A stretch of 34,607 nucleotides of DNA from Candidatus Zixiibacteriota bacterium (GTDB taxonomy: Bacteria > Zixibacteria > MSB-5A5 > GN15 > FEB-12): assembly GCA_024277795.1 (NCBI GenBank), contig JAJRUL010000159.1, positions 1 to 34,607 on the forward strand, written 5' to 3'. The notes below the pieces were generated by a model. The model searched no databases, was not told the DNA's origin, and was given only the letters and a program-made list of their open reading frames with translations. Below, in pieces: positions 1 to 28,851 of the stretch (position 1 is its first letter; the number at the start of each line of letters is the position of its first letter). Made by a program: the position numbers and the translations under genes.

Positions 1-179
1 ATCGTATCTCCAATATGCAAACCTACAGACGATCCGACATTGATATAGACCGCCTCTGCAGAAAGATAGGTCACTTCTCCACTATGAGCCGGCTCGGATT
101 TACTGGTATTACTGAAAGCTGTTTCCACTAACAGAAAACTCAACAGCAAAATTATACTTAGTATAGTTCTATGCATCAT
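1..179 (-). CDS. secreted protein of unknown function, N-terminal part only (runs off window start)
   Basis: Hand translation of the minus strand from ATG at 179: MMHRTILSIILLLSFLLVETAFSNTSKSEPAHSGEVTYLSAEAVYINVGSSVGLHIGDT. No stop before the window edge; signal peptide-like N-terminus; GGAAC just upstream; starts 5 nt after the stop of the 22-haem cytochrome gene. Absent from the supplied ORF track. Confidence 0.7.
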   Translation of the reverse strand, partial: MMHRTILSIILLLSFLLVETAFSNTSKSEPAHSGEVTYLSAEAVYINVGSSVGLHIGDT

Positions 180-184
180 GTTCC

Positions 185-1305
185 TTACGGTTTTGTTCCG
201 TCTGCATGACAGCCATAACAGACCTGACTATTATAAGAATAGCCAGATTCGCCCTTGTGCTTGTCATCCATTGCAGTTCGATTGTGTTCATGACAATTGA
301 AACATGTAAACTGTTTACGGTCTCCAGGAACCTCATGACAAGTTGAACATTGACTCCACTTAGATCTATGCTTTCCAGAATAGATAGGGAAATACTGCCC
401 ATCATGAGCAATAAATCGTCCAGCCTGACCATCAGGATGGCAATCAAGACAAAGCGGACTTAAGTAACTATATCCTTGCATACCACTGTGAGTATTATCC
501 GTATCTGTTTGATTATGCTTATGACAAGTAAAACAGTTAAACTCTTTTCTATCAGTCGGATTTGTATGACAAGCTGAACACTGAGACCATTGGTTGTTGT
601 GTTTTCCGGAAAAAATCGGGAAAAACTGTGCATCATGATCGACGTATGAACCCCTAACACCAGTTGGGTGACAATCAAGACAGAGCTGGCTCTGATAGGC
701 ATAGCCTGCAAAACCACTATGAATAGCATCAGTATCCGTCTGATTGTGTTTGTGACAATTAAAACAACTGAACTGCGTTCTATCTGAAGGTGTTGTATGA
801 CACTCAGTACATTGTTGCCACTGGGCATTATGAATCCCGGAATAGATAGGAAAAAATTGGCCGTCATGTGCAACAAATGTACCTTTCTCACCTGTAGGAT
901 GACAGTCGTAACACGCTGAACTCAAATAAGAGTATCCAGTCATACTGCCGTGTTTACCATCCATTTCACTCTGTCTATGCTGGTGACACTGCAGACAACT
1001 AAATTGTCGTCTATCACTCGGAACAACATGACAAACAGCACATTGATCCCATTGATCATTGTGCTTTCCTGAGTAAATAGGGAATGATTGTGCATCATGG
1101 TCTATAAACGGCTCTGCTTCACCTGTCGGGTGACAATCATAACATGCTATGCTCTGATAAGAATAACCGGGAATACTCAAATGATACGGATCAGTATCTC
1201 CCTGATTGTGCTCATGGCAATCTACACAGGAAAAAATTGCGTAACTCGATGGATCAATGTGACACTCAGCACAATCTCCCCATTCCCCACTATGCTTTCC
1301 ATTAT
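185..1305 (-). repeat. five tandem tri-haem repeats of ~77 aa (231 bp) within the 22-haem cytochrome
   Basis: Repeat unit FPIYSGKHNxQWxQCxxCHxxPSDRxxFxCxxCHxHNQTDTDxxHSGxxGYSYxSxxCxDCHPTGxxGxFxxHDGQF, five in-register copies with no gaps (the last is truncated at the C-terminus). The 231-nt period was checked by position for adjacent copies near 387 and 618. Confidence 0.9.
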
Positions 1306-1903
1306 ATATAGGAAAGATCGGGTCATGGTCAGGGAATCGTCCAGGTCTAAACGCATGCATCTGATGACAAAGCTGACAATCTATTGGCATACCGGCGGCT
1401 ACATGATCAGGTTCTGTCGTTTCAAGATATGTTGTCTCATGACATGATATGCATGATAGATTCGGGAACGACAGGTCTCCTCTTGGTAGATTAGTATGAC
1501 ATCCAAGGCAGTCGACAAGTGCATGACGGCCCATCAGTGGGAAGTTTGTATTTTCATGAATACTGTGGCTGTCAAAAACCTCCCATCCTCGAGATGTATG
1601 ACAACGAGTGCAATCTATACCCAGCTTTCCTTCATGTACATCTGTATGACATGATAAACAATCAGTCGTGACCCCTTTGAAATTCTTTATATTATGACAA
1701 CCTACACACTCTGCATGTGCATGACGTTCTTCAAGATCAAATGATGTCAGATTATTATGATCAAATTCCACATCAGAAAATGAGCTTGTTGTGTGGCAAG
1801 TCTCACATTCGAATTTAATCTTACCATGCGGATTATTTACTACCTGAGCATTAACTCCCATTGAGAGAAGAATCATAGCACTCATAAAGAGTAGTTGTTT
1901 CAT
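185..1903 (-). CDS. periplasmic/extracellular multihaem c-type cytochrome, 22 CxxCH motifs
   Basis: ORF 185..1921 begins at GTG; MKQLLFMSAMILLSMGVNAQ from ATG at 1903 is a better signal-peptide start. I count 22 CxxCH motifs by eye. Confidence 0.92.
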   Translation of the reverse strand: MKQLLFMSAMILLSMGVNAQVVNNPHGKIKFECETCHTTSSFSDVEFDHNNLTSFDLEERHAHAECVGCHNIKNFKGVTTDCLSCHTDVHEGKLGIDCTRCHTSRGWEVFDSHSIHENTNFPLMGRHALVDCLGCHTNLPRGDLSFPNLSCISCHETTYLETTEPDHVAAGMPIDCQLCHQMHAFRPGRFPDHDPIFPIYNGKHSGEWGDCAECHIDPSSYAIFSCVDCHEHNQGDTDPYHLSIPGYSYQSIACYDCHPTGEAEPFIDHDAQSFPIYSGKHNDQWDQCAVCHVVPSDRRQFSCLQCHQHRQSEMDGKHGSMTGYSYLSSACYDCHPTGEKGTFVAHDGQFFPIYSGIHNAQWQQCTECHTTPSDRTQFSCFNCHKHNQTDTDAIHSGFAGYAYQSQLCLDCHPTGVRGSYVDHDAQFFPIFSGKHNNQWSQCSACHTNPTDRKEFNCFTCHKHNQTDTDNTHSGMQGYSYLSPLCLDCHPDGQAGRFIAHDGQYFPIYSGKHRSKWSQCSTCHEVPGDRKQFTCFNCHEHNRTAMDDKHKGESGYSYNSQVCYGCHADGTKP

Positions 1904-1920
1904 TCTATCCAAACTGATCA

Positions 1921-3414
1921 CTATATCTCTCCTTGCCTAGGTGTGAGCGATCCGATATTACTGTCATGACAATCCTTACACTGCTTACCAAGCGGTCGAT
2001 ATCTGAATCCCTCAATATCATGATCCTTTTGCAGTACATGACATTGGTTGCATGCGACTTTCTTGTGTGCACCTTCAAGCGGATACGTTGTGTTCTGTGT
2101 ATGATCGAAATCTACTATTAACCAACTGTCGTTAGTATGACAATCCGTGCAGATCTTTACTGGAGCTGTTGCAGTAAATTGGGCATTGTGCTGATCCTTA
2201 TGACATCCTGTACAATTCTTGTCCTCAAAAACGAACTTACGATATTCTTTCTCCTTTTCTTTCTGTACAGTATGGCACGCGATGCACGGCTGGGCTTGGT
2301 GTGCACCGAAAAGTTTGAATTCGGATTGATTGTGGTCAGCAAGTGTATAGTTTGCCGGTTTGAATCCATCAACTGAATGACACGATTCACATTTCCCTTT
2401 ATCTTCTCTTTGAGCAAACTGACCAAAGTGTAAATCAGAGTGGCAATCGGTACAAAACTTTGATTTCATTTTCTTTTTGCTGATTCCACCTTTATGACAT
2501 TTCTCGCAAACCAGTAGTGTATGTTTCCCGCGCAACGGATAGTTGGTCTTGTTATGATCAAAATTCTTTGCTGATACTTTCAGCCAGCCGGAAGTACTAT
2601 GACACTTTGTACAGTTCTGTCCAAACTTGTCTTGATGAATATCTTTGTGACAGTCAGTACACGCGCTATGCTTGATGTCAACATATTTTGTATATGATGC
2701 CGTTTGCTTGACCTTGCTCTTCGGATCAATGAGTGTAGTATGACACTTTGTGCAATCAACATTCTTATGTTTTCCTGTCAAAAGGAACTTCGCCTTATCA
2801 TGGTCAAATAATTCTGCTGGCTTAAAACGCTCCATAGTATGACACCCGGAACATCTATCTGGCAACTGCCCTCTGTGTTCTCGACGATGACAACTCAGGC
2901 AAGTTGAATCGAGACCGAAGTACGTTCGAATCATATCGACTGACGGCTCATAACTTTTGAGGTCTTCTTGAATATTGGCAGGGTTGTGACAATCACGACA
3001 TTTTGTTACTCTATGCTTACCAACTAGCTCATAACCGATACTTCCGTGAGTCTCTTGTGTAAATGTTTCTGGTAACGTTATCAAAGCAAAATCGCGACCT
3101 GCATGTTCACTATGACAGACAAGGCACTGCTTCTCTTCTCTTTTTTTCTCTAAAACATGATACCCTCTCTTCTCATCAAGGCTCCGTTTAACCAACTTGT
3201 GACATTCAAGACATTTCCCATCCGTCGGACCTTCCCCCATTTCGTGGCATTTCGTACAGTTTGACAACCCTTCCAACGCTTCATGGTAAGTAGAAAGATC
3301 ACCAGGTGATATCTGTGCATGGGTAACAGAAGTAATACTCATGATCGCAGGTAATACTATTATGATCATAAGGCGATATATAGCGCTTATCATATTCTGC
3401 TTCAGAATATCCAT
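1921..3414 (-). CDS. multihaem c-type cytochrome, 17 CxxCH motifs
   Basis: 17 CxxCH motifs counted by eye. Signal peptide MDILKQNMISAIYRLMIIIVLPAIMSITSVTHAQ starts at ATG 3414, inside the longer ORF 1921..3501. Confidence 0.92.
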   Translation of the reverse strand: MDILKQNMISAIYRLMIIIVLPAIMSITSVTHAQISPGDLSTYHEALEGLSNCTKCHEMGEGPTDGKCLECHKLVKRSLDEKRGYHVLEKKREEKQCLVCHSEHAGRDFALITLPETFTQETHGSIGYELVGKHRVTKCRDCHNPANIQEDLKSYEPSVDMIRTYFGLDSTCLSCHRREHRGQLPDRCSGCHTMERFKPAELFDHDKAKFLLTGKHKNVDCTKCHTTLIDPKSKVKQTASYTKYVDIKHSACTDCHKDIHQDKFGQNCTKCHSTSGWLKVSAKNFDHNKTNYPLRGKHTLLVCEKCHKGGISKKKMKSKFCTDCHSDLHFGQFAQREDKGKCESCHSVDGFKPANYTLADHNQSEFKLFGAHQAQPCIACHTVQKEKEKEYRKFVFEDKNCTGCHKDQHNAQFTATAPVKICTDCHTNDSWLIVDFDHTQNTTYPLEGAHKKVACNQCHVLQKDHDIEGFRYRPLGKQCKDCHDSNIGSLTPRQGEI

Positions 3415-4280
3415 TTTGAACCCATGAGCAATGCTACAACAATATGACCGATCATTATCACAATCATAACGACAGCAAACGGTTTGTGAATAACGTGCCA
3501 AAGATGAAATACTGAATGAGCCACACCGAGTATATTACGACGACGTCTCATAATTGATCTGCGTCGGATCAGTTTCATTATTTCAGAAGCTACTGCAGGA
3601 GGTACATCATTATGTTTCCTGAGAATCTTTTTTTTCAGAAGATATAGTTGAACGGGTAGTTTGAGATCAGCAACGATCGAATGAGCTATTATCATTAATC
3701 GACTTGTTTTCTTATTGTCAGCTCCCCCTGATTTCTTACTACCTAACTCCAACAAATCAGGAGATACCTGAAAGCTTTCAACCAACAATTGTTCCATCCC
3801 TGAAATAGTAAGATCTATCTGACTTATTGAAAGCTCCATACCATTTTCATCACGAGGGATTTGCATATAAATATACCGACCGATGAATCCGCTACCCGCA
3901 ACAGCTAACATTGAGAAATAGCTAATTGATACTATACCGTTAAACTTCATGGATGTATGAAGTGTTATTAGTAATGGCCCCATAATTCCAAACCATATAT
4001 GAATATCTAACCAATGGCTCATCGTACCATAGCGCATCAACCATTTAGTCCTTTTTCTAGCCGAATAGAGAAACAACAACAGGATCATCATACTCCCTGC
4101 TATTCCTAAACCATGCCCTATAGGGCCACCTGGCTTCAACTGCTGGTGCATCTCATGATGAGGGCGTTCAATAAACGGTAAGGTATAGTAGTCCCAACCG
4201 ACAAATAGTGCATACGCACACATCACGAAACCAACGATATACATCATTATGAGTGTTATTCGAAATATCTTGGCTTTCAT
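3402..4280 (-). CDS. integral membrane b-type cytochrome-like protein
   Basis: Several hydrophobic helices with His residues positioned as possible haem ligands (HIWFGIMGPLLITLH, FHLWHVIHKPFAVVMIVIMIGHIVVALL). Overlaps the neighbouring genes by a few nt on both sides. Confidence 0.75.
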   Translation of the reverse strand: MKAKIFRITLIMMYIVGFVMCAYALFVGWDYYTLPFIERPHHEMHQQLKPGGPIGHGLGIAGSMMILLLFLYSARKRTKWLMRYGTMSHWLDIHIWFGIMGPLLITLHTSMKFNGIVSISYFSMLAVAGSGFIGRYIYMQIPRDENGMELSISQIDLTISGMEQLLVESFQVSPDLLELGSKKSGGADNKKTSRLMIIAHSIVADLKLPVQLYLLKKKILRKHNDVPPAVASEIMKLIRRRSIMRRRRNILGVAHSVFHLWHVIHKPFAVVMIVIMIGHIVVALLMGSKWIF

Positions 4281-5584
4281 CGTTGTCCGTACTTCGTTTC
4301 CATTCGTATACCAAGACTATTAAGAAAAGCTGTAGGAAGTTCGCCACCAATAAAGACAAATACATAATCATTCTTGAGAATCATTTCTTCCCCCTTACAG
4401 TCGAGAATCACACTCTCTGGCTCAATTTTCTTCACCTGTGATTCAAAAATGATAGTTAAACTACCCTTCTTCACGGCCTCGTCTACTCGAACCCTATTCC
4501 CCTCTTTGATTCTACTAAAGATATCTTTTCTATAGGACAAAGTTACTTTTGTACCGTCCTGTTCTGAGAGCATGCAAGCGGCTTCAATAGCAGAATCACC
4601 ACCTCCGACGACTAATACATCAGCTCCCACATATTGATCAGGTTCGATAAGTTTGTAAGCAACTTTTGCAGATTTCTCACCTTCGACATTAAGCTTCCTG
4701 GGGGTTCCGCGTCTTCCTACAGCAAGCAGAATTTTCTTAGTTGTATAACTGTTTTTATTTGATTGTAAGACAAAATGCCCATTGCCTCTATTGATAGACT
4801 CAACTTTCTCTGAACAAACGATCTTCACACCAACATTTTTAACTACATTCTTCCATAACTCAACCAATTCCTCCTTGAATACTTCTGGTTTATTAAAATG
4901 ACCATATTCTGGTATTATCATCGGTTGTGTCATAACTAGTTTTTGACGAGGATACGTAATAATCGCACCGCCAAACTCATCCTCTTGTTCAAGCGTAACT
5001 GCTCGTAAACCTTCCAGTTTTGCTTGTAGTGCCGCTGATAGACCAGCAGGCCCCGCACCGACAATAACCAGATCAAGGATATCATCCCCATTGGAAGAAT
5101 TGTTTCCTGCAATATATTCGACTGCTTCACGTCCTTGAGTTACAGCATTTCTGATAAGTCCCATTCCTCCAAGTTCACCTGCAATATAAATACCAGGTAC
5201 ATTGGTCTCGAAATTCTCACTTATATGAGGTATATCAACTCCTCTACGTGCTGTCCCGAAAACAAGAGATATAGCATTTACCGGACATGCAGTCTGACAC
5301 GCTCCGTGCCCTATACACTTACTGGGTGAAACGAGTACTGCTCTACCATTTACGATTCCCAAAATCCCTTTTTCTGGACATGCTGATAAACATGCCCCGG
5401 TACTTATACATCCGTTAGGATCTATAAGAGGGTGAAGTGATACTGGCTCAATAAGACCAAGCTCCTCAGCCTGTTTGAGTTTATGTTCTGCTTGCTTTGA
5501 GTGTGAACGAACTCTGTACCAATAGTAGTATGGAACAAGTACTGCAAAACCAACAACCACAATAGCGATTAGCGTTTCTACCAT
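4277..5584 (-). CDS. membrane-anchored FAD-dependent pyridine nucleotide oxidoreductase with N-terminal ferredoxin-like domain
   Basis: N-terminal TM helix; two Cys-rich motifs CISTGACLSACP and CIGHGACQTACP; FAD motif VIVGAGPAGLSAA; NAD(P) motif VLVVGGGDSAIEAA; thioredoxin-reductase-like fold but no CxxC redox pair. Confidence 0.85.
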   Translation of the reverse strand: MVETLIAIVVVGFAVLVPYYYWYRVRSHSKQAEHKLKQAEELGLIEPVSLHPLIDPNGCISTGACLSACPEKGILGIVNGRAVLVSPSKCIGHGACQTACPVNAISLVFGTARRGVDIPHISENFETNVPGIYIAGELGGMGLIRNAVTQGREAVEYIAGNNSSNGDDILDLVIVGAGPAGLSAALQAKLEGLRAVTLEQEDEFGGAIITYPRQKLVMTQPMIIPEYGHFNKPEVFKEELVELWKNVVKNVGVKIVCSEKVESINRGNGHFVLQSNKNSYTTKKILLAVGRRGTPRKLNVEGEKSAKVAYKLIEPDQYVGADVLVVGGGDSAIEAACMLSEQDGTKVTLSYRKDIFSRIKEGNRVRVDEAVKKGSLTIIFESQVKKIEPESVILDCKGEEMILKNDYVFVFIGGELPTAFLNSLGIRMETKYGQR

Positions 5585-5654
5585 TCCTATTAAATCCTAT
5601 CTAAACCCAGAGGACCATCTAAACACGCCGTACTATCGGGTATGATTTAGATTA

Positions 5655-5682
5655 TATATATTATCGGTATCAAACAACTCAA
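5655..5682 (-). promoter_or_regulatory. possible sigma-70 promoter of the cytochrome operon
   Basis: Minus strand TTGAGT (5682-5677), 16-nt spacer, TATATA (5660-5655), with an AT-rich TATATATAAT block upstream of the 5584 start. Confidence 0.3.
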
Positions 5683-5696
5683 AATTGATCAATAAT

Positions 5697-5877
5697 GGAG
5701 AAATCCGATGAAAAATGTCTACATATACATTCTATTGTTATGCAAGGATTTACGATTACAGTATCGGCGCAAGATCTGCTACAATAGCATATAAGAGACT
5801 TTGACCAAGGGATAACCCGGATGACTGCAACAGCCCACTCTGTCAGCTTAGCCAGCTATTATGTGGGTATGTGCGAA
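5697..5877 (+). pseudogene. possible decayed secreted-protein gene (signal peptide remnant with frameshifts)
   Basis: GGAG at 5697-5700, ATG at 5708, MKNVYIYILLLC, then continuation only in other frames (GFTITVSAQDLLQ* in one, YARIYDYSIGARSATIAYKRL* in another). Confidence 0.3.
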
Positions 5878-5965
5878 TAATAGAATATCTTCCTGCCATA
5901 TTCGAAATTGATATACGTGCAACCATAAAATACTTTATAAAAATGCTTTGTAAGAGAGTCAACTG

Positions 5966-7165
5966 TTAAGCAGTACTAGCCCTACAAAGCGAAAAGACCA
6001 TATCAGTTTGACTGGTAAGTCCAAGCGACTCTAAATACTCACCTGAAACTGACTCATTCAGGATATTCCCTCGAGCATTTTCATGTGTGTGAAAAACAGA
6101 GGCTAAATATACTGCACAAAGTGCATTTAATTCAGGAACAGGAGTTTTGTCAGGAGTATACTGCATCGCAACCGCTTCAACAATCGGGTCGCAGAACCCC
6201 CAACTTGAAAGCAAATAGGCTCCCAACTGAGCATCATGAACGCCAAGTACTTCAATTTCAGCAAGATACAAAGGCATCTGTTGTGAATTGACAATGTCAA
6301 TGGCATCTTTGAATTCATTCTTAAAGTGCCCGAGCATCAACAGCTTACCAACATCATGTAAAGCACCTGCCAACAAAGAGTCCTCGACGACTTGAGAGGG
6401 CATTCCGAATGAGTGGGCAAGCGTTCTGGCAGAAGTAGCGACACGTAAACATTTATCTCGAATATGCTCTATAGAATATCCTTCTACTGCTGAGACAGAA
6501 TTCTTATCAAACACAGATGTAGCACAAACTATTGTCGAAACAGTTTGCATTCCAAGCATATTTACAGCTTGAGTAACTGAACTAATACGTTGCGAAAGTC
6601 CAAAATATGCAGAGTTAGCCATCTTGAGCATCTGTGCACTCAAGCCAATATCTTGTGATATCAGATTAGAAATATTCTGTACAGAGACATCTTCCTTATT
6701 CATCTCGGAAACAAGCTTTTCATAGATCTCTGGAAGAGTGGGCAAACTACTAACTGAGGATACAATAGAACGTATCCGATCATTACTAATAGTTTGTCTA
6801 AGCTCAATAGAGTTCTTGAGCATATTATTGAACGTGTCCAATTTGATCGGGGTTGAGATAATACGATGTGCGGAGTTTGATGCATCAAAACTACCTGCAT
6901 CATCTTTATTCCCAACAATCAACACCCGCAAACCATCAGCAGTACATTTCGATACGTGCAAGAGCAACTCACTACCTACCATATCCGGGAGATCCTGTTT
7001 TGCAACAATTGCATCCCAGGATTCATTCTCCAATTTGCTGATTGCTTGCTTGCCATCTGATGTAGAAGTAACCTCCCATCCCCCCGACTCCATATTCAAT
7101 TCATCTTTTGATACCAACTCATCCAGCGATTCCACTCCCACTAGTAAGAGACGGTTTGCAGACAT
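5966..7165 (-). CDS. HDOD-domain protein with N-terminal degenerate receiver domain
   Basis: Receiver-like N-terminus (SWDAIVAKQDLPDMVGSELLL), then a typical HDOD: IVSSVSSLPTLPEIYEKLVSEM...LISQDIGLSAQMLKMANSAYFG...LLAGALHDVGKLLML. Confidence 0.88.
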   Translation of the reverse strand: MSANRLLLVGVESLDELVSKDELNMESGGWEVTSTSDGKQAISKLENESWDAIVAKQDLPDMVGSELLLHVSKCTADGLRVLIVGNKDDAGSFDASNSAHRIISTPIKLDTFNNMLKNSIELRQTISNDRIRSIVSSVSSLPTLPEIYEKLVSEMNKEDVSVQNISNLISQDIGLSAQMLKMANSAYFGLSQRISSVTQAVNMLGMQTVSTIVCATSVFDKNSVSAVEGYSIEHIRDKCLRVATSARTLAHSFGMPSQVVEDSLLAGALHDVGKLLMLGHFKNEFKDAIDIVNSQQMPLYLAEIEVLGVHDAQLGAYLLSSWGFCDPIVEAVAMQYTPDKTPVPELNALCAVYLASVFHTHENARGNILNESVSGEYLESLGLTSQTDMVFSLCRASTA

Positions 7166-9925: not shown

Positions 9926-12442
9926 ATGAATCGCCATATCATAACTCTTCTTATTCTTGTTATTGGTCTGTCTCTTTCCTGTGGAAATGATTCTTCTACC
10001 AATCCACCAGCAACCAAAGTAGGATCGTGGGCTTTAAGTGTAAATGGATTACCGTCCGGTGTTGATGGCAATCTCATATTGACGGGGCCGAATAACTATA
10101 ACCGAAATCTAACTGGAAGCATCCAAATAAACGATCTCGAAATTGGAAACTATTTGTTACTGTGCGATACAGCCATACATGGCGTTGATACTCTCGTCCC
10201 TACTCCTGCTTCATTGGTGCTAACAATAACTCAGAATGATACCGTATCTACAACAGTTACATATTCACCCTCACAAATGACTCCAAAAGGATCACTTACT
10301 ATTACCATTACAGGTCTTCCTTCTGGAGAAACAGGCTATGTTCGATTGAGCGGTCCGGGTATTGCTGGGTACATTGAAGTTAATCAAACGACAATCTTTG
10401 ATTCACTTCAAATCGGAACTTTCCTTGTTGCCGCATACGGTATCACAGCATCAGACGGTCTTAACTATCGTCCAAAAATTGACTCTCAAACAGTCGTCGT
10501 ATCAACGACTCCCGCATCAGTCAATGTCGAATATGAACCACAATATGGTACAATTCAAATCAATGTTCAGGGCTTACCCTCGGGCGAGGATGCGGAAATT
10601 CGATTCTATGAAACAGGTCTCCCCGATAGCTACATTGGTATCAAAAAAACTGAACAGATCGACTCTGTTGCAGAGGGACAATATACTGTTCAGGCATTTG
10701 AAATCGAAGCGGGTGACGGAACTATCTATCGACCGGAACACTACTATCAGCCTGTTCAAGTGATGGGCCATCAACTCTCAACTGTTGATGTTGTTTACTT
10801 TCCCAAATATGGCAGTATTGCATTTACAGTAGGCGGTTTACCTCAAGGATTGTTTGCTGATGCTACGTTAGAGACACCAGATTTAGATTATGCTATATTA
10901 GAAAGTATCATTATTGACTCGCTCGAAGAAGGAAACTACACAGTTACTGCGAACGAAGTGACCGCTACAGATGGACAAGTATATAAACCGGATTTTGACT
11001 CTGCAACAGTTACAGTCAACGGCGGTCAAGTAACCAACTTCTCTATACAATATAAACCGAAATTCGGTAAGTTGGATTTAAGAATTACCGGCCTACCCAA
11101 TGAATTGGCGGGTGACGTTACCGTCACGAGAGACGACCTTGCGATTGTCGGTAAGTTTGGCGTTTCAACAATAATTGATTCGCTGGTTGAGGGAACATAC
11201 TGGGTTGTGAGCAAAGAAGTTGTGGATGGCAGTAATAATATCTACAAACCTGAGCGTGACAGCCTGCAAGTGTATATCATCCCACCTCAAACAGCTATAA
11301 TACACGTAAAGTACAAATCGAATTTGGGCTATTTGAAAATAGATATTTCAGGACTCCCCGACCAAACTGAAGCCGACATTCTCGTTGAGAAAGATGACTT
11401 GGGGTTTACCAAGCATGTCACATCTCCTGAAGTCATAGAGTTACTGGAAGAAGGCGCATACCGCATTATAATATATGAAGTAACTGACATGTCGAAAAAT
11501 GAGAGTTACTACCCCGCTCTTGATACTGCATGGAGAAGCATTACTGGTGGTGATACGACAAGTATAAATGTGATATACAAACCAGGATTCAGATTCGAAG
11601 TCTACGATGTCAACACTCCAGGCCGAATTCACGGGTATAGCACAGGTTGGTGCTGTCAAACATATAGTGATTGCTCAGAGTTCAATGGCTATACTGATTA
11701 TTTTGACTCAACAACGATGACCAACGGATATATCGTATATGGCTGTGATTCTATCTCCTCGATCAACATGATTACCGATTCTGGTTATAGTGCATCAGTA
11801 AGCCACACAGGAGATTTTGGCAATTCTCATGCAAGCCAACAGGTCGTCGTCTCAAGACAAGATAGAACAATATTTATTCAGAACAATCTTAATGCAATCG
11901 CTACAGTCCCATCCTGCGACGTCAATGGACACGCCATCTTCTACGCGAAAATTGACGGTGGCTATTACAAATCAGGAAATGCTGAGATATCTACCTCACC
12001 CAATGTTGTCCCTTCATACCTGATTATTGACATTAAGAACCCAAAACGTGATACCATAAAAGTCCAATTCGACTACACAGGATCTGGATCAGCTACCTAT
12101 GACCCGTCAGGTCCATCTATTTTTTCCGGTGGAGCATGGGGAGGAGCAAACCTAATCGTTACAGAAGCAGTCAACACATGTACATATTATTGGAGTAACT
12201 GGAATCAAATATACACATTCGGTTTCGGTACTGGTGATCCCAATCCATACGGAAACAGCGTATCTGGTTCAGAAGAAATAATCATCACAAATCCGAGAAC
12301 ACTCTTAAGCGTACAATATACAAATTCAGTTGAAGTGGCGTCATGGAAGAAAAATGAATCAGCTCCTGGAGACGGCGAAGGTGCAGGTACTGCTTCTCTT
12401 GCTTCTTCAGTTTTAATCACCGTTGAACAGATCAAAAAATAA
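9926..12442 (+). CDS. repeat-containing lipoprotein (838 aa)
   Basis: Lipobox MNRHIITLLILVIGLSLSCGNDSS; six ~86-aa repeats; C-terminal Cys-containing domain (YSTGWCCQTYSDCSEFNGYTD). Confidence 0.85.
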   Translation: MNRHIITLLILVIGLSLSCGNDSSTNPPATKVGSWALSVNGLPSGVDGNLILTGPNNYNRNLTGSIQINDLEIGNYLLLCDTAIHGVDTLVPTPASLVLTITQNDTVSTTVTYSPSQMTPKGSLTITITGLPSGETGYVRLSGPGIAGYIEVNQTTIFDSLQIGTFLVAAYGITASDGLNYRPKIDSQTVVVSTTPASVNVEYEPQYGTIQINVQGLPSGEDAEIRFYETGLPDSYIGIKKTEQIDSVAEGQYTVQAFEIEAGDGTIYRPEHYYQPVQVMGHQLSTVDVVYFPKYGSIAFTVGGLPQGLFADATLETPDLDYAILESIIIDSLEEGNYTVTANEVTATDGQVYKPDFDSATVTVNGGQVTNFSIQYKPKFGKLDLRITGLPNELAGDVTVTRDDLAIVGKFGVSTIIDSLVEGTYWVVSKEVVDGSNNIYKPERDSLQVYIIPPQTAIIHVKYKSNLGYLKIDISGLPDQTEADILVEKDDLGFTKHVTSPEVIELLEEGAYRIIIYEVTDMSKNESYYPALDTAWRSITGGDTTSINVIYKPGFRFEVYDVNTPGRIHGYSTGWCCQTYSDCSEFNGYTDYFDSTTMTNGYIVYGCDSISSINMITDSGYSASVSHTGDFGNSHASQQVVVSRQDRTIFIQNNLNAIATVPSCDVNGHAIFYAKIDGGYYKSGNAEISTSPNVVPSYLIIDIKNPKRDTIKVQFDYTGSGSATYDPSGPSIFSGGAWGGANLIVTEAVNTCTYYWSNWNQIYTFGFGTGDPNPYGNSVSGSEEIIITNPRTLLSVQYTNSVEVASWKKNESAPGDGEGAGTASLASSVLITVEQIKK
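10022..11587 (+). repeat. six diverged ~86-aa 'G-x-I-x-GLP-x-G' beta-sandwich-like repeats in the lipoprotein
   Basis: Repeats begin GSWALSVNGLPSG, GSLTITITGLPSG, GTIQINVQGLPSG, GSIAFTVGGLPQG, GKLDLRITGLPNE, GYLKIDISGLPDQ. Each has an 'I(D/E)xLxEGxYxV...YxPxxDS...V.Y.P' continuation. Confidence 0.85.
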
Positions 12443-12536
12443 TAACAAACAATAAGAGAGTAACGCGCCTATACTTTCACACCACTGATGAAAACGCATT
12501 ATAGAGTAGATTTGATCCTCTCAACTGATCAAAACA

Positions 12537-14114
12537 CTACTTAACTAAAAGCATTTTCTTAGTTAGAGCCAAATCTCCAGCAGTTATACGGTAGAAATAC
12601 AGACCGCTTGCAACTTGATTCCCCGTATCATCACGACCATCCCAACTGACCGAGTGCCTACCAACAGACTTAACCCCAAGATTAACAAACCGAATTTGTT
12701 TTCCTAGTGTATTAAAAATTGTGACTGTCACCTCACAAGAGGATGGAAGATTAAATGAAATATATGTTATCGGATTAAATGGATTCGGGTAGTTCTGAGC
12801 AACAGTAAACGTTTTTGGCAATTCGGTATCCAAATTTGAGTCAAAAATATCTGTGGGGATACTATCACAAACATCTCCTACCCCATTACCATCGCTGTCC
12901 AATTGATCAGCATTGGCAATCGACGGACAATTATCATTATAGTCGATTATCCCATCGAAATCTGAATCTACAAAACCCGTATAAGCAAACGCCCCCATAT
13001 CGTTCCGAGTTCCATCCTGATCAAGATAGGCGTAATCGGGACTCCCTGCATCAATGCATTGAGATGAAACGCTCAAGTAATACTCCGAGCCTGAATATGG
13101 CATAAACTGCGGATCAGCGAAGATTGTACCAGCACCAGGGAGGACACCATAATAATCACCGAGTTGATTGCTAAATGTATTGTTGTATTCGGCGACGGCA
13201 CCCGATGCATCACGAATATACACCCCCCATCCTGAGTTGAATGCAAAAATGTTATTGCGAATATAAATACGTGTAGAATGTGTCTTATGAATACAATCAT
13301 GACATCCTGAGAATGTATTGTTTTCAATCCGTACATGTGCTGAACTTGTCTTAACCGTGAGAGCAACATCAGTACAGTTGTTGAATAAGCAATGAGTAAC
13401 AAGTGTCGAATCTGAATCACCACAAATCTTGACATTACTATTATTAAAACTGCACCGTCGAATGACTGATATATTGTCATGATCGACATAAAATAACGCA
13501 GTATCAAATCGACAGTCTTCAATCAACATCGACTGCTTATATAAGTACAGTGTGGAACCTGTTCGAAACCAACAGTTTTTTATAACCCCGCTTTTACCAC
13601 TATTATTTACTCTCAATCTTATGAACGAGCAACTGTCAATCGTTACTTCAGTACTGTCAGGCAGTGAAATTGCCGGAAATCCTCCTAGTGAGTCAAATGT
13701 AAACCCTTTGATTGTTGACAGATTGCGAAGTGACATCGGAAACTTTACAATCGGAACTGCAGGATATCGTCCAACTAATGTTGTCACATCATAACCATCA
13801 GCAGACATCAACACGATTGATGCACTCCCAAAAACAATATGCTCAGTATATACTCCGGGATGGACAAGAACAGTATCCCCATCGACTGCAATCTGTACAG
13901 CGTGTTGAATTGTCGCAAACGGTTGAATGATAGTCCCGTCACCTGAAGTATCACTTCCTGACTGAGAGACATGGATAACTGTCCCAGCTTGCACCGAACT
14001 TGTAACCACCTTCAAGCTGGAGGTTGTCCACTGATCTGACTGAGTAGTCTTTGCTGACACATGAGCAATGAGAAATACTATTACTACAATTACAAATGAA
14101 ATGATTTGTTTCAT
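12537..14114 (-). CDS. secreted right-handed beta-helix protein with thrombospondin type-3-like Ca-binding segment and T9SS/FlgD-like C-terminal sorting domain
   Basis: Signal peptide; GDGTIIQPFATIQHAVQIAVDGDTVLVHPGVYTEHI; DSDFDGIIDYNDNCPSIANADQLDSDGNGVGDVCD; C-terminus QNYPNPFNPITYISFNLPSS...SGLYFYRITAGDLALTKKMLLVK. Confidence 0.9.
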   Translation of the reverse strand: MKQIISFVIVVIVFLIAHVSAKTTQSDQWTTSSLKVVTSSVQAGTVIHVSQSGSDTSGDGTIIQPFATIQHAVQIAVDGDTVLVHPGVYTEHIVFGSASIVLMSADGYDVTTLVGRYPAVPIVKFPMSLRNLSTIKGFTFDSLGGFPAISLPDSTEVTIDSCSFIRLRVNNSGKSGVIKNCWFRTGSTLYLYKQSMLIEDCRFDTALFYVDHDNISVIRRCSFNNSNVKICGDSDSTLVTHCLFNNCTDVALTVKTSSAHVRIENNTFSGCHDCIHKTHSTRIYIRNNIFAFNSGWGVYIRDASGAVAEYNNTFSNQLGDYYGVLPGAGTIFADPQFMPYSGSEYYLSVSSQCIDAGSPDYAYLDQDGTRNDMGAFAYTGFVDSDFDGIIDYNDNCPSIANADQLDSDGNGVGDVCDSIPTDIFDSNLDTELPKTFTVAQNYPNPFNPITYISFNLPSSCEVTVTIFNTLGKQIRFVNLGVKSVGRHSVSWDGRDDTGNQVASGLYFYRITAGDLALTKKMLLVK

Positions 14115-14299
14115 GATGCACCCTACATTTTTTTATGTTAACAACAGATATGTTGCATTACAGCAATATTGATGTCAACAAAATGATCCTAGACATTCTT
14201 ATCTTACATAAGTCTATTCCTTCAGCTTCTCGGAGAAGTTTCATTGTTGTGACTAGATCGACAAGTTTTCAAGCACAATACTTGACATGAAAAAGTAAC

Positions 14300-14383
14300 T
14301 GCCGAAGGGGGGACTCGAACCCCCACTCTCCAAGGAGAACTGCGCCCTGAACGCAGCGCGTCTACCAATTTCACCACTTCGGC
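14300..14383 (-). tRNA. tRNA-Leu (anticodon CAG)
   Basis: Minus strand GCCGAAG ... CTGCG-TTCAGGG-CGCAG anticodon arm, long variable arm TTCTCCTTGGAGAG, GGGGGTTCGAGTCCCCC T-arm, CTTCGGC-A acceptor; no encoded CCA. Confidence 0.95.
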
Positions 14384-14550
14384 AATATCTCACGAATCAC
14401 GATGATCCGCACAGGGAACGCAATATAATCGGGTCGACAAAAAAATCAACAGGATTCTTGATTGTACTAAAGCAACAAGCTAAAGCACGACAAAAGAAAA
14501 AAGCCTGATCTTGTTATTGTTTTGCCGATACATTTGAGTATTCTATTACT

Positions 14551-15885
14551 ATGGCTTACTCAAAAACATTCAACCAAAAGCATATACATACAATAGATCT
14601 GACCCTCATCTTTTTTATCGCTCTCGTACTTCGGCTTATCATGCTCACTTTCAGTGTAGAACAATCAGGTTTTGATGCCTTTTGGTCTTCGACTGTTGAT
14701 ACTGTCAATTATTTCAGTATTGCCAATGACTTCTTAGACGGAACAAATTATGCCGAGAGATTCTTATTCATTTTTGGACCGGGGTTTGGTGCATATTTGG
14801 CCTTGATCATGACAGTCTGCGGAGAACATATTTTCCCAATCCTCTTCATAAACATAATAATATCAGCCTCTTCCTGTTGTTTAATGTACCTGCTTGCCAA
14901 TCATCTGTTTCATAACCGACTCGTTTCAATAATAGCAAGTCTCCTCATGGTAGTTTCATATACAGCAATTTCCCTGAGTATCATCGTCCTATCCGACACA
15001 CTCTTCTTCTTCCTCTTCTTGTTATCACTATACACTCTCCTAACAGGCATACAAAAAAACAGACGACTATACTTCATATGTTCAGGTTTGTTCATGGGTT
15101 ATGCAATCCTCGTTCGATCGATTGGGCAGTTCTGGTTTGTACCTATTGCAATCATTATTCTTCTGTCGTTGACCTATCATAGAACTATGAAAGTTCGGGA
15201 TATCTATAACTACAACAAGGAGATTATTCAAAAAGGTGCAATAACGATCGCAATCATTCTGATTGTCATATGTACTGTGTCAATAAGGAACTATACAGTC
15301 CATAACGTATTTGCTATCACATCAACTGCCTCAGGAGGACTAGCCAATGTAGCCGCTTTTACATATGAATTACTCGATGGAACACCACGTCGTGCAGTAC
15401 GAACACAATGGTATAACGATTTTATGGAAGAGAACAATCGAGAGAGCATAACAGAAAAAGAGATGCACATAATCAACCAAAAAAAGGCTATCACAACTTT
15501 CTTACACCATCCGATAACAATGATTCAATCTCATTTATTAACAGCATGGACTAATGCAAACGAAATCAATAGTCTCAATAGAATACTATTTCCAAAAACG
15601 AAGAAGTTCGCAATTAAGATTGAACATTTCATTAGAAACTACAAACTCAATTACAGTGGCTTCATTTTGACAATACTCGGCCTTATTCTTCTTGCTATAA
15701 ATAGGCATCACAAAACAATGGCCATTATTGCACTAATCTATGCCTATTATTTCGTAATGATCGGTTCATATTATTGGCAAGGATCTCGACTCTTCTTCCC
15801 AGCCGAAATCGCATCATCTCTATCAATTGCTTATCTACTCGTGTACTGTTTTCAAAAAATAAAAAGAAGGCTATATAATACTTAG
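14551..15885 (+). CDS. multi-pass membrane glycosyltransferase-like protein (GT39/ArnT-like architecture)
   Basis: About 10 hydrophobic helices; N-terminal ALVLRLIMLTFSVEQSGFDAFW; early acidic loop residues (DTVNYFSIANDFLDGTNY) typical of dolichyl-P-mannose-type transferases. Confidence 0.65.
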   Translation: MAYSKTFNQKHIHTIDLTLIFFIALVLRLIMLTFSVEQSGFDAFWSSTVDTVNYFSIANDFLDGTNYAERFLFIFGPGFGAYLALIMTVCGEHIFPILFINIIISASSCCLMYLLANHLFHNRLVSIIASLLMVVSYTAISLSIIVLSDTLFFFLFLLSLYTLLTGIQKNRRLYFICSGLFMGYAILVRSIGQFWFVPIAIIILLSLTYHRTMKVRDIYNYNKEIIQKGAITIAIILIVICTVSIRNYTVHNVFAITSTASGGLANVAAFTYELLDGTPRRAVRTQWYNDFMEENNRESITEKEMHIINQKKAITTFLHHPITMIQSHLLTAWTNANEINSLNRILFPKTKKFAIKIEHFIRNYKLNYSGFILTILGLILLAINRHHKTMAIIALIYAYYFVMIGSYYWQGSRLFFPAEIASSLSIAYLLVYCFQKIKRRLYNT

Positions 15886-15922
15886 TTCATACTACAAGTA
15901 GAGCTTCAATGATTGCACAATA

Positions 15923-15956
15923 AAACCGCCAAGTCATTCACACAACTTGGCGGTTT
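15923..15956. terminator. bidirectional rho-independent terminator
   Basis: AAACCGCCAAGT / ACTTGGCGGTTT perfect 12-bp stem with a 10-nt loop, between convergent genes ending at 15885 (+) and 15984 (-). Confidence 0.9.
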
Positions 15957-15983
15957 CGTCACGTTCAATACAACTATTGAATG

Positions 15984-16838
15984 TTAGTTCAGATACGCTC
16001 TGAGTGAGCGACTACGTGAAGCATGGCGAAGTCGACGAATCGCTTTTTCTTTGATCTGTCGAACTCGCTCACGAGTTAAAGAAAACCTTGCGCCAATCTC
16101 TTCAAGCGTCAACGATTTCTCATGAGAAAGACCAAAATACAAATTGATCACTTCTGCTTCACGCCCCGTCAGTGAATCCAAGGCCTTTTCAATTTCAACC
16201 CGTAATGAATCTTTCAATAGTGATTCATCGGGTGATGGCTGGAATTCATCCTCGAGCACATCAATAAGAGAGTTATCCTCTGAGACCGAAAACGGCGCAT
16301 CCAAAGACAGATGCGAGTTTGAGATCTTCAGTGTGTCAGCAACCTCTCCTTCTGTTAGCTCAAGCTCTTTGGCAATTTCCTCTGGTGATGGAACTCTTCC
16401 GAGTCCCTGTTCCAGACGACTGGAAATCTTACCAATCTTATGAAGCGTTCCTACCCTATTAAGCGGTAAGCGGACAATTCGGCTCTGCTCGGCCAATGCC
16501 TGCAAAATCGCCTGACGAATCCACCAAACCGCATAGGAAATAAATTTGAATCCGCGAGTCTCATCAAAACGCTTGGCCGCTTTAATAAGGCCTATATTGC
16601 CTTCATTGATTAGATCGGCCAGGGAGAGACCCTGATTCTGATACTGTTTTGCCACAGATACAACAAAGCGAAGATTGGCTTTTGTTAGCTTCTCCAGGGC
16701 TTTTTGGCTACCCTGCTTGATTTTTCGAGCCAACCGCACTTCTTCCGCGGCATTAATGAGAGGAGTTTCCCCGATTTCACGAAGGTACAGATCGAGTGAA
16801 CGATCTTCATCGCGATACTTGAGGGATTGTTTAGCCAC
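15984..16838 (-). CDS. rpoD: RNA polymerase sigma-70 factor, short RpoD/SigA type
   Basis: [114 protein letters not shown]; no region 1.1. Confidence 0.93.
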
Positions 16839-16935
16839 TTTCTGTGTCTTACTCCTTACTTAAGGTTCACCAATGCAATCGTTCATACCTTGCCGATTGC
16901 CATATATCCACAAGAATGCTCACGCAAGCACTCAA

Positions 16936-18429
16936 TTATGGTCTTAATACTCTCCGCGCAGGCGTACCGTCTGGTTGTTGTACAATCAACGGAATCCTTT
17001 TACCTGCACTCTTGAGCTTACCAGCCAAAGGAGTAAACTCCTTCAAAGACGCTACCGCATGTTTATCAACAAGGATAATAATCGTCCCTCTGGTTATTGA
17101 TGCCCGATCGGCTGAACTGCCACGTTCAACATTTCGGACGTATAAACCCGGTACATGTTCAACACCAAGTTTATCTGCAAGTTCCTCAGTAAAATCAACC
17201 AATTCCATACCAAGCCAGAGATAACCTCTCGGTAATTCTCGCTCTACTCGTCTATTTCTACCCGAAACATACCAGTCCCTATCACCAATATCTGCCCGTA
17301 AGCTCTTATGAGAGCCATTCCGTACCAATTCAATCGGTACAGCCTCCCCGACCTTCATCGTCGAAACAAGTACAGATAACTGTCCCGCATTGACAACATC
17401 CTGGTCACCAAAACCTACTATAATATCACCTTTTTTAATACCCGCATTCTCAGCAGGTGATCCACTAAATACGGAATCAATACGAACACCCTTAACGGCA
17501 TCTAAACCTTGTCGTTTCGCTTCACGCTCACTGACATTATTTAGCCATACCCCAAGCCAACCACGAGAAACATGACCTGTTGCAATCAAATCAGGAGTAA
17601 TAGCCCTTGCCAGATTGATCGGAATAGCAAAACCAATTCCGACAGACCCGCCAGACGGTGATGAAATAGCTGAGTTTACACCGATACATTCACCTCTCAG
17701 ATTCAACAACGGTCCGCCTGAGTTACCTGGATTAATAGAAGCATCGGTTTGAATATAGTACTGGTAATACGGCGTTTCACGTCCAAAATTCAACTGACTA
17801 CGACCAATGGCTGAAATCACCCCCACAGTCACTGTTCTGTCTAACCCCTGCTGAGGAAATGGATTCCCGATGGCAATCGCCCAATCCCCTACCTTAAGGT
17901 GATCTGAATTCCCAAATGAAATTGTAGTTATCTGTTCTTGAGGCTCCACCTTCAGAACAGCAAGATCAGTCTCAGGATCAGTACCGACTACCACAGCCTC
18001 ATATTCAAAGCCAGAAGCTGTACGAACAGTTACTCTAATCGCATTTTCAACCACATGATTGTTCGTAAGGATATATCCGTCTTCACGAAAAAAGAAACCT
18101 GAGCCCGACGATGTCCCCTGTCCATTGCCTCCTCGATGCCAAAATGACCTCGGCTCCTGACGAGTCCTCGCAGATATATTGACTACTGCATCTTGCACCT
18201 GCTCAACAACCGCCACAAACGGTGATTCTTGAACACCATCCCGATTTACAACAGGATGCAAACCGGTTTCTACAATATTCGGAGATTGTCTTGCAACTGA
18301 TTCAGTCGGAAGATTCAATCCTGAAGCAATCAGAATCCCGATCAATATACTCACTATGGCGACAGATCCATATGTCGCGTATCGTAATCCCCCACGACCT
18401 TTTCTGGTGGAGAATCTGCTCATTTTCAC
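16936..18429 (-). CDS. degP: periplasmic serine endoprotease DegP/HtrA family (trypsin-like plus two PDZ)
   Basis: TNNHVVENA, DPETDLAVLKVE, NPGNSGGPLLNL triad contexts intact; two PDZ-like segments. Confidence 0.93.
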   Translation of the reverse strand: MKMSRFSTRKGRGGLRYATYGSVAIVSILIGILIASGLNLPTESVARQSPNIVETGLHPVVNRDGVQESPFVAVVEQVQDAVVNISARTRQEPRSFWHRGGNGQGTSSGSGFFFREDGYILTNNHVVENAIRVTVRTASGFEYEAVVVGTDPETDLAVLKVEPQEQITTISFGNSDHLKVGDWAIAIGNPFPQQGLDRTVTVGVISAIGRSQLNFGRETPYYQYYIQTDASINPGNSGGPLLNLRGECIGVNSAISSPSGGSVGIGFAIPINLARAITPDLIATGHVSRGWLGVWLNNVSEREAKRQGLDAVKGVRIDSVFSGSPAENAGIKKGDIIVGFGDQDVVNAGQLSVLVSTMKVGEAVPIELVRNGSHKSLRADIGDRDWYVSGRNRRVERELPRGYLWLGMELVDFTEELADKLGVEHVPGLYVRNVERGSSADRASITRGTIIILVDKHAVASLKEFTPLAGKLKSAGKRIPLIVQQPDGTPARRVLRP

Positions 18430-18593
18430 CTCTATGCTCCCTCCAATCAGACAGCCAAGGAGTATAAGCTATTGACTGCCATAAGTCAATTGAAAACTTG
18501 AATTATTTTATCTCTACTCACTACATATTTATAACGTTGAAACGTGCAAAGAGATTCAAAAAAAGGTGGAAAATCATCTTTACGACCGAAAAG

Positions 18594-18664
18594 CATGAGC
18601 GAAGCAATCTCTACTTCACATCCAACAAGATCGCCACGTCGCTATCGCTCCTCGCGATGACACA
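18594..18664. repeat. dispersed palindromic repeat element of the 'GTCATTGCGAGGAGCGAAGCGACGTGGCAATC' type
   Basis: Minus strand reads TGTCATCGCGAGGAGCGATAGCGACGTGGCGATCTTGTTGGATGTGAAGTAGAGATTGCTTCGCTCAT, matching the shape of a widespread intergenic repeat (left arm, variable spacer, AGATTGCTTCGCTC right arm). Confidence 0.7.
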
Positions 18665-27061: not shown

Positions 27062-28768
27062 TCAACCGAAATAACCTGTAAAAAATAGAACCATTCCGAC
27101 AATAAAAAGTACCCCAAACGCTGTCGCCACCAATAACCAGAGAGGCACTGTCTTTCTCGTATCTTCTTGAACAACAGGTTTAGCAAGTGCTCTTCTGCGT
27201 TTTTCTTCTTCACGTTGACGTTCGTAATCTTCCCAATCAAGAAGGAACTCTTCACACGACCGATACCGACGCGACACACGAATAGCGAGCATCTTGCCAA
27301 TCATCTCTACTAATTCGTCAGGAAGTTCAGCCCGAAGACTGTCAACGATCAGATTGTTCCCTGAATCATACACAGGAGTCCTACCAACGAGCAACTGATG
27401 TAGCACAACGCCCATACCATAAATATCTCCCGCCCTGGATTTCTTCCTCTCAGGCGGGCTGTACCAGTTTCTCTTCTTACGGTCATCATAATGCGGAGGC
27501 ATTGCAAAATCTGTCAGTTTTACCACTTCATTCGCATCAAAGAGCAAGTTTGAAGGACGTAAATTCCCGTGCAGAATGTTATTCTTGTGAGCAAAATCAA
27601 GACCTGATGCTACCTGCCTGATTATCTCAAAAGCTTTCTCCCAACCATACGTGCGAACCATGCGATCTGCAAGTGAACCTCCCTGCGCATATTCAGAGAT
27701 TATAACAGTTCCATTCTTATCATTTCCCGCACCAAGGATATTAATTATGTTATCATGCTTCATCGAGGAAAGTAATTTTGCTTCCTTCTTCCCGTCTTCA
27801 CCTTTAGCATGGCGCTTGATAACATACAATTTCTTTGTCACACGGTTTTCTACGAGAATTGTTGAGCTGTAATTCGTCTCTCGAATAGTGTCCATGTAAC
27901 GACATTTACCAAGAAAAGACTCTGAACCTGACACATCCATCTTACTCGGATCGGATCCGCCTGACTGACCTCCGATAGCATCGAGAATAGCATCCTTTAA
28001 CTCAACCGCTGTCTGGTACCTGTCACTTGCCTCTTGAGCCAGACATTTTGTAATAATATTGTCAAAAGCTGTCCCTATTTGGGGATTAAGCTCAGAAGGC
28101 AACTTGAAACTTCCCAACGGTTTTTTAGCCGTCAAAATCTCATAAAGTATCACACCGACCGCATAAATATCTGTAGTTTGATCAACATTAGTCGAACTGA
28201 CTTTCTGTTCTGGCGACATATAAGAGAGAGTCCCCATAATAACATCCGAAGCAGTCATTTCAGCCTCAGGGGTGCCGACGATCTGAGCAATACCAAAATC
28301 TGCAACCAAGGCATTCCCTTGACGATCTATCAAAACATTAGCAGGCTTGATATCTCTGTGAATTACACCATTTTTATGCGCATAATCGAGTGCTTTACAC
28401 ACCTGTGCAATCATCTCAATCTTGGTTCTGAATTCGATACGGTCTGAGTCGATTACCTCACGAAGAGAGGTCCCGTCAATATAATCCATAACAAAATAAT
28501 ATCGACCTCCCGCCGTCCCTTTATCAATGATATGTACGATATTCGGGTGATTCAACCGAGCAATTACGAGCGATTCTCTTTCAAACCGACGGACTATATC
28601 TTCATCTGAAGTCAACTTCGTCGAAAGAACCTTAATCGCTACTTCCCGATTCAGAGACTCTTGATACCCTTTATAAATTTCGGCTATACCGCCCTGCCCT
28701 ATTTTTCCGGTTAGAACATACTCACCAAATTTGACTACTTTTTTAGCGGGAGCTACTGCCTGCGACAT
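27062..28768 (-). CDS. serine/threonine protein kinase with a second, degenerate kinase domain and C-terminal TM helix
   Basis: Domain 1: GQGGIAEIYKG, VAIKVLS, HRDIKPANVLI, ADFGIAQ, SPEQ. Domain 2: LYVIKRHAKG, HGNLRPSNLLF, TDFAMPP, SPPERK. TM near the C-terminus. Start assigned to ATG 28768 (GGAGAG RBS) rather than 28837. Confidence 0.9.
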   Translation of the reverse strand: MSQAVAPAKKVVKFGEYVLTGKIGQGGIAEIYKGYQESLNREVAIKVLSTKLTSDEDIVRRFERESLVIARLNHPNIVHIIDKGTAGGRYYFVMDYIDGTSLREVIDSDRIEFRTKIEMIAQVCKALDYAHKNGVIHRDIKPANVLIDRQGNALVADFGIAQIVGTPEAEMTASDVIMGTLSYMSPEQKVSSTNVDQTTDIYAVGVILYEILTAKKPLGSFKLPSELNPQIGTAFDNIITKCLAQEASDRYQTAVELKDAILDAIGGQSGGSDPSKMDVSGSESFLGKCRYMDTIRETNYSSTILVENRVTKKLYVIKRHAKGEDGKKEAKLLSSMKHDNIINILGAGNDKNGTVIISEYAQGGSLADRMVRTYGWEKAFEIIRQVASGLDFAHKNNILHGNLRPSNLLFDANEVVKLTDFAMPPHYDDRKKRNWYSPPERKKSRAGDIYGMGVVLHQLLVGRTPVYDSGNNLIVDSLRAELPDELVEMIGKMLAIRVSRRYRSCEEFLLDWEDYERQREEEKRRRALAKPVVQEDTRKTVPLWLLVATAFGVLFIVGMVLFFTGYFG

Positions 28769-28786
28769 AAAAATCTTCTCTCCATA

Positions 28787-28826
28787 ATAAAAAAACAGGG
28801 ATAGCGATTGTTTCGCTATCCCTGTT
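28787..28826 (-). terminator. rho-independent terminator-like hairpin immediately upstream of the kinase RBS
   Basis: Minus strand AACAGGGATAGCGA-AACAA-TCGCTATCCCTGTT perfect 14-bp stem (28826-28794), followed by TTTTTTATTAT and then GGAGAG and the kinase ATG. Confidence 0.88.
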
Positions 28827-28851
28827 ATAATCGGCAATATCTCTACAACTC

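Follow-up and report, generated by a model that had tools for sequence, protein, structure and literature searches.

A cluster of redox genes lies at one end of a contig from a Candidatus Zixiibacteriota genome (NCBI assembly GCA_024277795.1, contig JAJRUL010000159.1). The window analysed here is the whole of that contig (C127, 34,607 bases), which belongs to a 252-contig, 2.96 Mb genome that is about 91% complete. Five genes follow one another on the minus strand. They encode a predicted FAD/Fe-S NAD(P)H oxidoreductase (4277-5584, 435 residues), a five-helix inner-membrane protein of 292 residues that probably carries two b haems (3402-4280), c-type cytochromes with signal peptides and 17 (1921-3414, 497 residues) and 22 (185-1903, 572 residues) haem motifs, and the start of an outer-membrane beta-barrel protein (1-179). 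In this order, the first two junctions are overlaps of 4 and 13 nucleotides, and the next two are gaps of 17 and 5 nucleotides. The truncation of the fifth gene at position 1 thus coincides with the end of an assembled contig. The original prediction, made from the sequence of the window, had described this minus-strand cluster; its gene order, overlaps, redox motifs and counts of 17 and 22 CxxCH motifs proved exact. The arrangement is not a product of chance, as the same genes adjoin one another in dozens of other genomes.

The flavoprotein is built from one N-terminal membrane anchor, a two-cluster ferredoxin-like domain and an FAD-NAD(P) module of the thioredoxin reductase (TrxR)/YpdA class. 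Pfam matches are Pyr_redox_3 (1e-43) and Fer4_10 (4e-11), and the closest solved structures belong to the YpdA/TrxR/FNR2 class. The glycines of the FAD-binding GAGPAG motif (5042-5059, minus strand) are invariant among relatives, and the NAD(P)-binding GGGDSA motif (4589-4606, minus strand) is conserved. Two conserved arginines after the latter, R352 and R358, suggest a preference for NADPH. Both Fe-S motifs are one cysteine short of the canonical CxxCxxCxxxCP. In the first, C59-x5-C65-x3-C69-P (5375-5410, minus strand), threonine 62 takes the place of the canonical second cysteine, which is present in 39 of 51 sequences and lost in the clade of the window. In the second, C90-x2-H93-x2-C96-x3-C100-P (5282-5317, minus strand), the second cysteine is replaced by histidine, and the motif reads CxGHxxCxxxCP in 50 of the 51 sequences. 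Judged by this alignment, the histidine is a family signature. Cysteine replacements of this kind in ferredoxin motifs result in [3Fe-4S] or His-ligated clusters. The conserved cysteines of the flavoprotein are Fe-S ligands only, and this indicates that the protein is not a thiol reductase. A YpdA- or thioredoxin-reductase-like function in thiol exchange was rejected, since no redox-active CxxC is conserved; the NCBIfam YpdA model gives the protein a score of 171 against a cut-off of 340. Together, these features support the flavoprotein as the putative cytosolic point of electron entry. A match of the flavoprotein on a Pseudoalteromonas plasmid is surrounded by glycosyltransferase genes and was set aside as unrelated.

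The inner-membrane protein, referred to here as cytochrome b, was modelled by AlphaFold2 (pLDDT 90) as five membrane helices and a helical hairpin. The model and hydropathy place the transmembrane (TM) helices at residues of about 3-27, 53-77, 87-108, 115-139 and 256-285, and hydropathy together with the positive-inside charge distribution places the hairpin in the cytosol. Conservation and motif searches identified three motifs, all on the minus strand: W90-x3-H94-x13-H108 on TM3 (3957-4013), S130-G-x-x-G134 on TM4 (3879-3893) and W261-x3-H265-x13-H279 on TM5 (3444-3500). Among sequences of at least 200 residues, SGXXG is present in 65 of 65 and the double WX3HX13H in 60 of 65, and two WX3HX13H motifs arose by chance in 13 of 200,000 shuffles of the protein. 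The original prediction depended on conserved haem-ligand histidines, and all four are nearly invariant (H94 and H279 each in 64 of 66 sequences, H108 and H265 each in 65). These histidines form two HX13H pairs, one on each of TM3 and TM5, and so probably hold two stacked b haems, an inner one between H94 and H265 and an outer one between H108 and H279. No Pfam or NCBIfam model matched above its cut-off; weak matches were to DUF4405, Ferric_reduct and b561-type families. Ferric_reduct scored 15.6 bits against a cut-off of 28, and 26 of 42 members match it at E-values up to 1, the best being 0.0011. A sequence search of the PDB gave no match. Weak relatives of cytochrome b (50-57 bits) in G032, G034, G036 and G072, with frames of about 280-320 residues matching residues 46-263 at most, may form another di-haem membrane protein family.

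The two cytochromes have 26 and 29 residues per haem, and the median over 100 cytochrome frames is 28.9. In the 22-haem protein, a unit of 77 residues and three haems occurs five times in tandem (185-1309, minus strand), and a haem spacing of 15/28/34 recurs five times. In most relatives, the first cytochrome is conserved in size, with 17-20 haems, and the second is variable, with 14-73 haems. The 17-haem protein is presumably periplasmic, and the 22-haem protein probably passes through the barrel or sits outside it. Second cytochromes with 67 and 73 CxxCH motifs (1716 and 1827 residues) are encoded in the L018 and L019 cassettes. The genome also contains genes for the maturation and assembly of c-type cytochromes, and further multihaem cytochrome loci, some with frames of 660-1000 residues, are present on its contigs C84, C151, C183, C133, C75 and C164.

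Such cytochromes could belong to a known reductase module for nitrite, tetrathionate or sulfur, an identity that the original prediction had set against its own proposal. Weak matches to NrfB, DmsE-family and Hmc/Qrc models point in this direction. However, all of them lie far under the curated cut-offs, and the cluster has no catalytic subunit. Every cysteine of the mature cytochromes (34 of 34 and 44 of 44) belongs to a CxxCH motif, which leaves no CxxCK-type catalytic haem. A nitrite or sulfur reductase identity was rejected because no family model passed its cut-off, and a reductase module of any of these kinds is scarcely credible.

The fifth gene starts at ATG 179 (or 176), just past the stop codon of the 22-haem gene, and runs off the contig after its first 59 codons. 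The original prediction had read it as a truncated secreted protein and had proposed looking for an outer-membrane porin or surface cytochrome beyond position 1. The signal peptide and the truncation are both real, but the protein is more than a secreted one: the signal peptide is followed by an SH3-like domain, and the fragment is 49% identical to the N-terminus of a barrel family. It is the start of an outer-membrane beta-barrel, and the porin that was sought is this gene itself. Members of the family in relatives have 500-590 residues, a signal peptide, a small SH3-like N-domain and, in many copies, an aromatic final residue. Outer-membrane barrels end in an aromatic residue. The model of one relative's barrel has 22 long strands, and its PDB matches are ushers and porins, which are outer-membrane barrels. 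In Pfam, three barrels of the family gave only a sub-cut-off match to a FlgT_C-like N-domain and were not recognised by the MtrB/PioB porin family model. The only other barrel piece in the assembly is a C-terminal part of 282 residues, open at the end of contig C202 (4,070 bases). This contig probably holds the remainder of the gene, in which case C127 and C202 would adjoin, with an expected gap of about 0.6 kb between them.

A scan with the membrane protein over one genome per species (85,462 species) identified 65 relatives. The synteny on which the original prediction had relied is conserved in their neighbourhoods, across FCB phyla and Acidobacteria. Their contigs come from Zixibacteria, KSB1, Calditrichota, Neomarinimicrobiota, Eisenbacteria, Latescibacteria, Abyssobacteria, Acidobacteria, and entries labelled Gemmatimonas and Bacteroidetes. 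The conserved cassette consists of the FAD protein, cytochrome b, the two large cytochromes and the barrel protein, and some cassettes add a third cytochrome of 8-10 haems. The FAD gene was found beside 51 of the 65 relatives, a barrel beside 43 and a multihaem cytochrome beside 55; all components, with two large cytochromes, are present in 32. Nearly all absences fall at contig ends or at the ends of the retrieved stretch. Gene order varies. The FAD gene comes first in the group of the window and cytochrome b in Marinimicrobia; the FAD gene lies behind the last gene in several Calditrichota, and the barrel lies ahead of cytochrome b in Acidobacteria. In the Marinimicrobia locus L059, the upstream genes resemble housekeeping genes in their first parts.

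A complete copy is also present in a cultured organism. Plasmid pEMTOL02 of Emticicia oligotrophica DSM 17448 (L084; NC_018749.1, locus positions 9965-18661) has a run of genes (EMTOL_RS21090-RS21110) for cytochrome b, the flavoprotein, cytochromes with 23 and 40 haems and the barrel; their products are listed as hypothetical, NAD(P)-binding and cytochrome c3 proteins. The run adjoins genes for ccsA (cytochrome maturation), a Rieske protein and YceI. The maturation gene, like the YpdA/TrxR-like FAD domain, would suit a system that supplies reductant within the periplasm, to the cysteines of haem attachment or to a periplasmic enzyme, with nothing leaving the cell. We regard such a role as very improbable, since the FAD protein has no redox CxxC, the cysteines of the cytochromes are all haem ligands, and a barrel belongs to the cassette. 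A triad on a plasmid of Legionella fallonii (L085; NZ_LN614828.1, locus 2941-6271) is an analogue. It comprises an FNR-type FAD/2Fe-2S protein, a 228-residue membrane protein with two HX13H pairs and a 7-haem cytochrome, with a multicopper oxidase gene nearby. We excluded it from the cassette members because its flavoprotein is of a different, unrelated FNR type and no barrel is present in the stretch.

Apart from the FAD protein, the cluster fits the published description of PCC3, a class of porin-cytochrome conduit (He et al. 2017, PMC5566968). PCC3 clusters were described from Gallionellaceae, Leptothrix and other Proteobacteria as four genes, with no flavoprotein listed. Two encode cytochromes, an extracellular one with repeats and a very variable number of haems (median 34) and a periplasmic one with a median of 21; the others encode a porin and an inner-membrane protein without an assigned function. 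The last has about 300 residues and five helices, carries SGXXG on TM4 and a WX3HX13H motif on each of TM3 and TM5, and was likened to FRE/NOX proteins; residues per haem range from 22 to 39 with a median of 26 (PMC5566968). The five-TM protein of the window bears all three published motifs exactly, and the haem numbers, haem density and repeats of its cytochromes and the barrel in the cluster are further likenesses. In contrast to PCC3, the window system adds a conserved NAD(P)H/FAD/Fe-S protein, and its hosts are FCB phyla and Acidobacteria. Judged by the published description, it is PCC3-like in all but the FAD protein. Hence, the conduit of the original prediction, in which FAD/Fe-S input on the cytosolic side feeds a transmembrane cytochrome b and a chain leading outward, is upheld by homology, motifs and synteny, but the arrangement does resemble a named system, contrary to what had been thought. 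PCC4 also has an inner-membrane protein with the same motifs, preceded in subgroup II by an Fe-S gene; however, its cytochromes carry 4, 5 and 10 haems, and the Fe-S protein belongs to pfam13247 and is not reported to have an FAD/NAD(P)H domain (PMC5566968). The function of PCC3 has had no experimental test to date (PMC12442390). Geobacter-like porin-cytochrome operons have been reported in Zixibacteria by FeGenie (PMC7005843), and a literature search on Marinimicrobia and multihaem extracellular electron transfer found no paper in the library searched.

Taken together, the product of the operon is probably a porin-cytochrome conduit that resembles PCC3 but has an NAD(P)H dehydrogenase of its own, and it would connect cytosolic NAD(P)H with the cell exterior and bypass the quinone pool. 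NAD(P)H would reduce the FAD of the membrane-anchored flavoprotein, and single electrons would reach the inner b haem by way of the two clusters of the ferredoxin type. From there, they would move to the outer b haem and the 17-haem periplasmic cytochrome, and then through the 22-haem cytochrome, in or beyond the barrel, to the outside. Gene content, conservation, motifs, the fold class of the barrel and the pairing of flavoprotein and cytochrome b are the observations behind this scheme; the cofactors, the nucleotide used, the order of transfer and the localisation are deduced from the genes.

One question is whether quinones take part. Cytochrome b could exchange electrons with the quinone pool, with the flavoprotein as a side input or as a donor to quinone. 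Reactions with quinones are common among five-TM di-haem proteins of the b561/FRD type, and a quinone site in cytochrome b is possible on sequence grounds. He et al. drew electron flow in PCC3 as quinone-linked, for the same class of inner-membrane protein and the same motif signature, and the clusters that they described have no flavoprotein gene (PMC5566968). The genomes of the phylum argue differently. Among 134 of them, cytochrome b (strong match) is present in 26, and the flavoprotein accompanies it in all 26, nearly always as a neighbour or in the same cluster; in most, both are found on the same contig, no more than about 11 kb apart. The flavoprotein occurs without a full cytochrome b in three genomes, one of which has a cytochrome b fragment, and 105 genomes have neither (Fisher p about 1e-24, shared ancestry ignored). 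The flavoprotein is a dedicated, obligate partner of cytochrome b. If it were a side input and no more, losses should be more frequent, which disfavours that role, and we consider the quinone-linked scheme unlikely. Besides the possible quinone site and the published PCC3 model, a few points weigh against direct NAD(P)H input into a conduit. The acidobacterial locus L044 has cytochrome b, a cytochrome and a barrel, with no FAD gene in about 8 kb downstream, and the barrel of the window is a fragment. In the PDB, Foldseek matched the cytochrome b model to no solved structure, so the evidence for haem binding consists of motif, conservation and topology.

The direction of flow in the NAD(P)H-linked conduit is a separate matter. 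Multihaem conduits are reversible, and PCC3 has been discussed for Fe(II) oxidisers (PMC5566968, PMC12442390). Electrons might therefore run inward, so that Fe(II), a mineral or a partner is oxidised and NAD(P)+ is reduced directly, and the haem-copper oxidases of the genome could act as a second outlet. However, transfer from Fe(II) to NADP+ is uphill and against the membrane potential, and no energy-coupling subunit is visible. No RuBisCO match was found in the genome; other CO2-fixation pathways were not searched for. Electron uptake is an improbable use of the system. Outward flow is more likely, whether for export in redox balance or to reduce Fe(III)/Mn(IV) or a partner, because a negative-inside membrane potential favours outward electrons and the genome has haem-copper oxidases and no RuBisCO match. 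Outward flow would dissipate the membrane potential, and without coupling elsewhere the conduit would then serve less for energy-conserving respiration than as a redox sink.

Comparison with other systems shows which features are shared. FRE/NOX proteins have two HX13H pairs on TM3/TM5, a cytosolic NAD(P)H-FAD side and electron passage across the membrane via two b haems, and cytochrome b can be called FRD/NOX-like in this respect. In contrast, the FAD part of the window system is a separate TrxR/YpdA-type protein with Fe-S clusters and no fused FNR domain, the Ferric_reduct match is below the Pfam cut-off, and delivery is to multihaem cytochromes. The Mtr/Pcc/Cbc systems of Shewanella and Geobacter likewise combine an inner-membrane cytochrome, a periplasmic multihaem cytochrome, a barrel and an outer cytochrome. 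CymA, CbcL and ImcH are quinol-linked, however, and the barrel and inner-membrane protein of the window are not Pfam-recognised members of these families. A study of ghost-rock metagenome-assembled genomes (PMC13264449, June 2026) found ferredoxin-NADP reductase (FNR) genes near 7 of 11 decahaem-type porin-cytochrome clusters and suggested functional coupling. The idea of a nucleotide-linked module beside such a conduit therefore has a partial precedent. The likeness lies in a gene annotated as FNR that occurs close to a porin and a multihaem cytochrome, and it is one of annotation only. Those clusters differ in their large decahaem cytochromes, and the section of that study consulted gives no pairing with an inner-membrane cytochrome b, no motif and no co-occurrence analysis. 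As far as shown, the pairing of the flavoprotein with a di-haem inner-membrane protein and their near-perfect co-occurrence are new within the literature searched.

More tentatively, with the chances somewhat short of even, these cassettes could form a widespread conduit class of FCB phyla and Acidobacteria that wires soluble NAD(P)H to the surface, quinone-free and partly driven by membrane potential, through a flavoprotein with a conserved His-substituted (His-ligated or 3Fe-4S) cluster. The Gram-negative outward conduits compared here draw on quinol at the inner membrane. An obligatory NAD(P)H dehydrogenase of its own would instead tie fermentative redox balance or NADPH regeneration to the outside. 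The PCC3 inner-membrane protein, so far without a function, would gain a partner and a testable site of electron entry. The cassette is present in many uncultured marine and subsurface phyla in which extracellular electron transfer is suspected, and the complete plasmid copy in the cultured Emticicia makes the question directly testable.

Other genes of the window encode proteins of different kinds. Two overlapping genes encode a protease of the HtrA/DegP type that has trypsin and PDZ domains (31516-32880) and a PDZ-domain protein without a recognisable protease domain (30081-31544), and the two are possibly an active/inactive pair. The protein encoded at 27062-28837 has two kinase domains, the second of which looks like a pseudokinase, with HGN and DFA instead of HRD and DFG. 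A lipoprotein-like protein of 838 residues (9926-12442) contains repeated units of about 80 residues and has no Pfam match.

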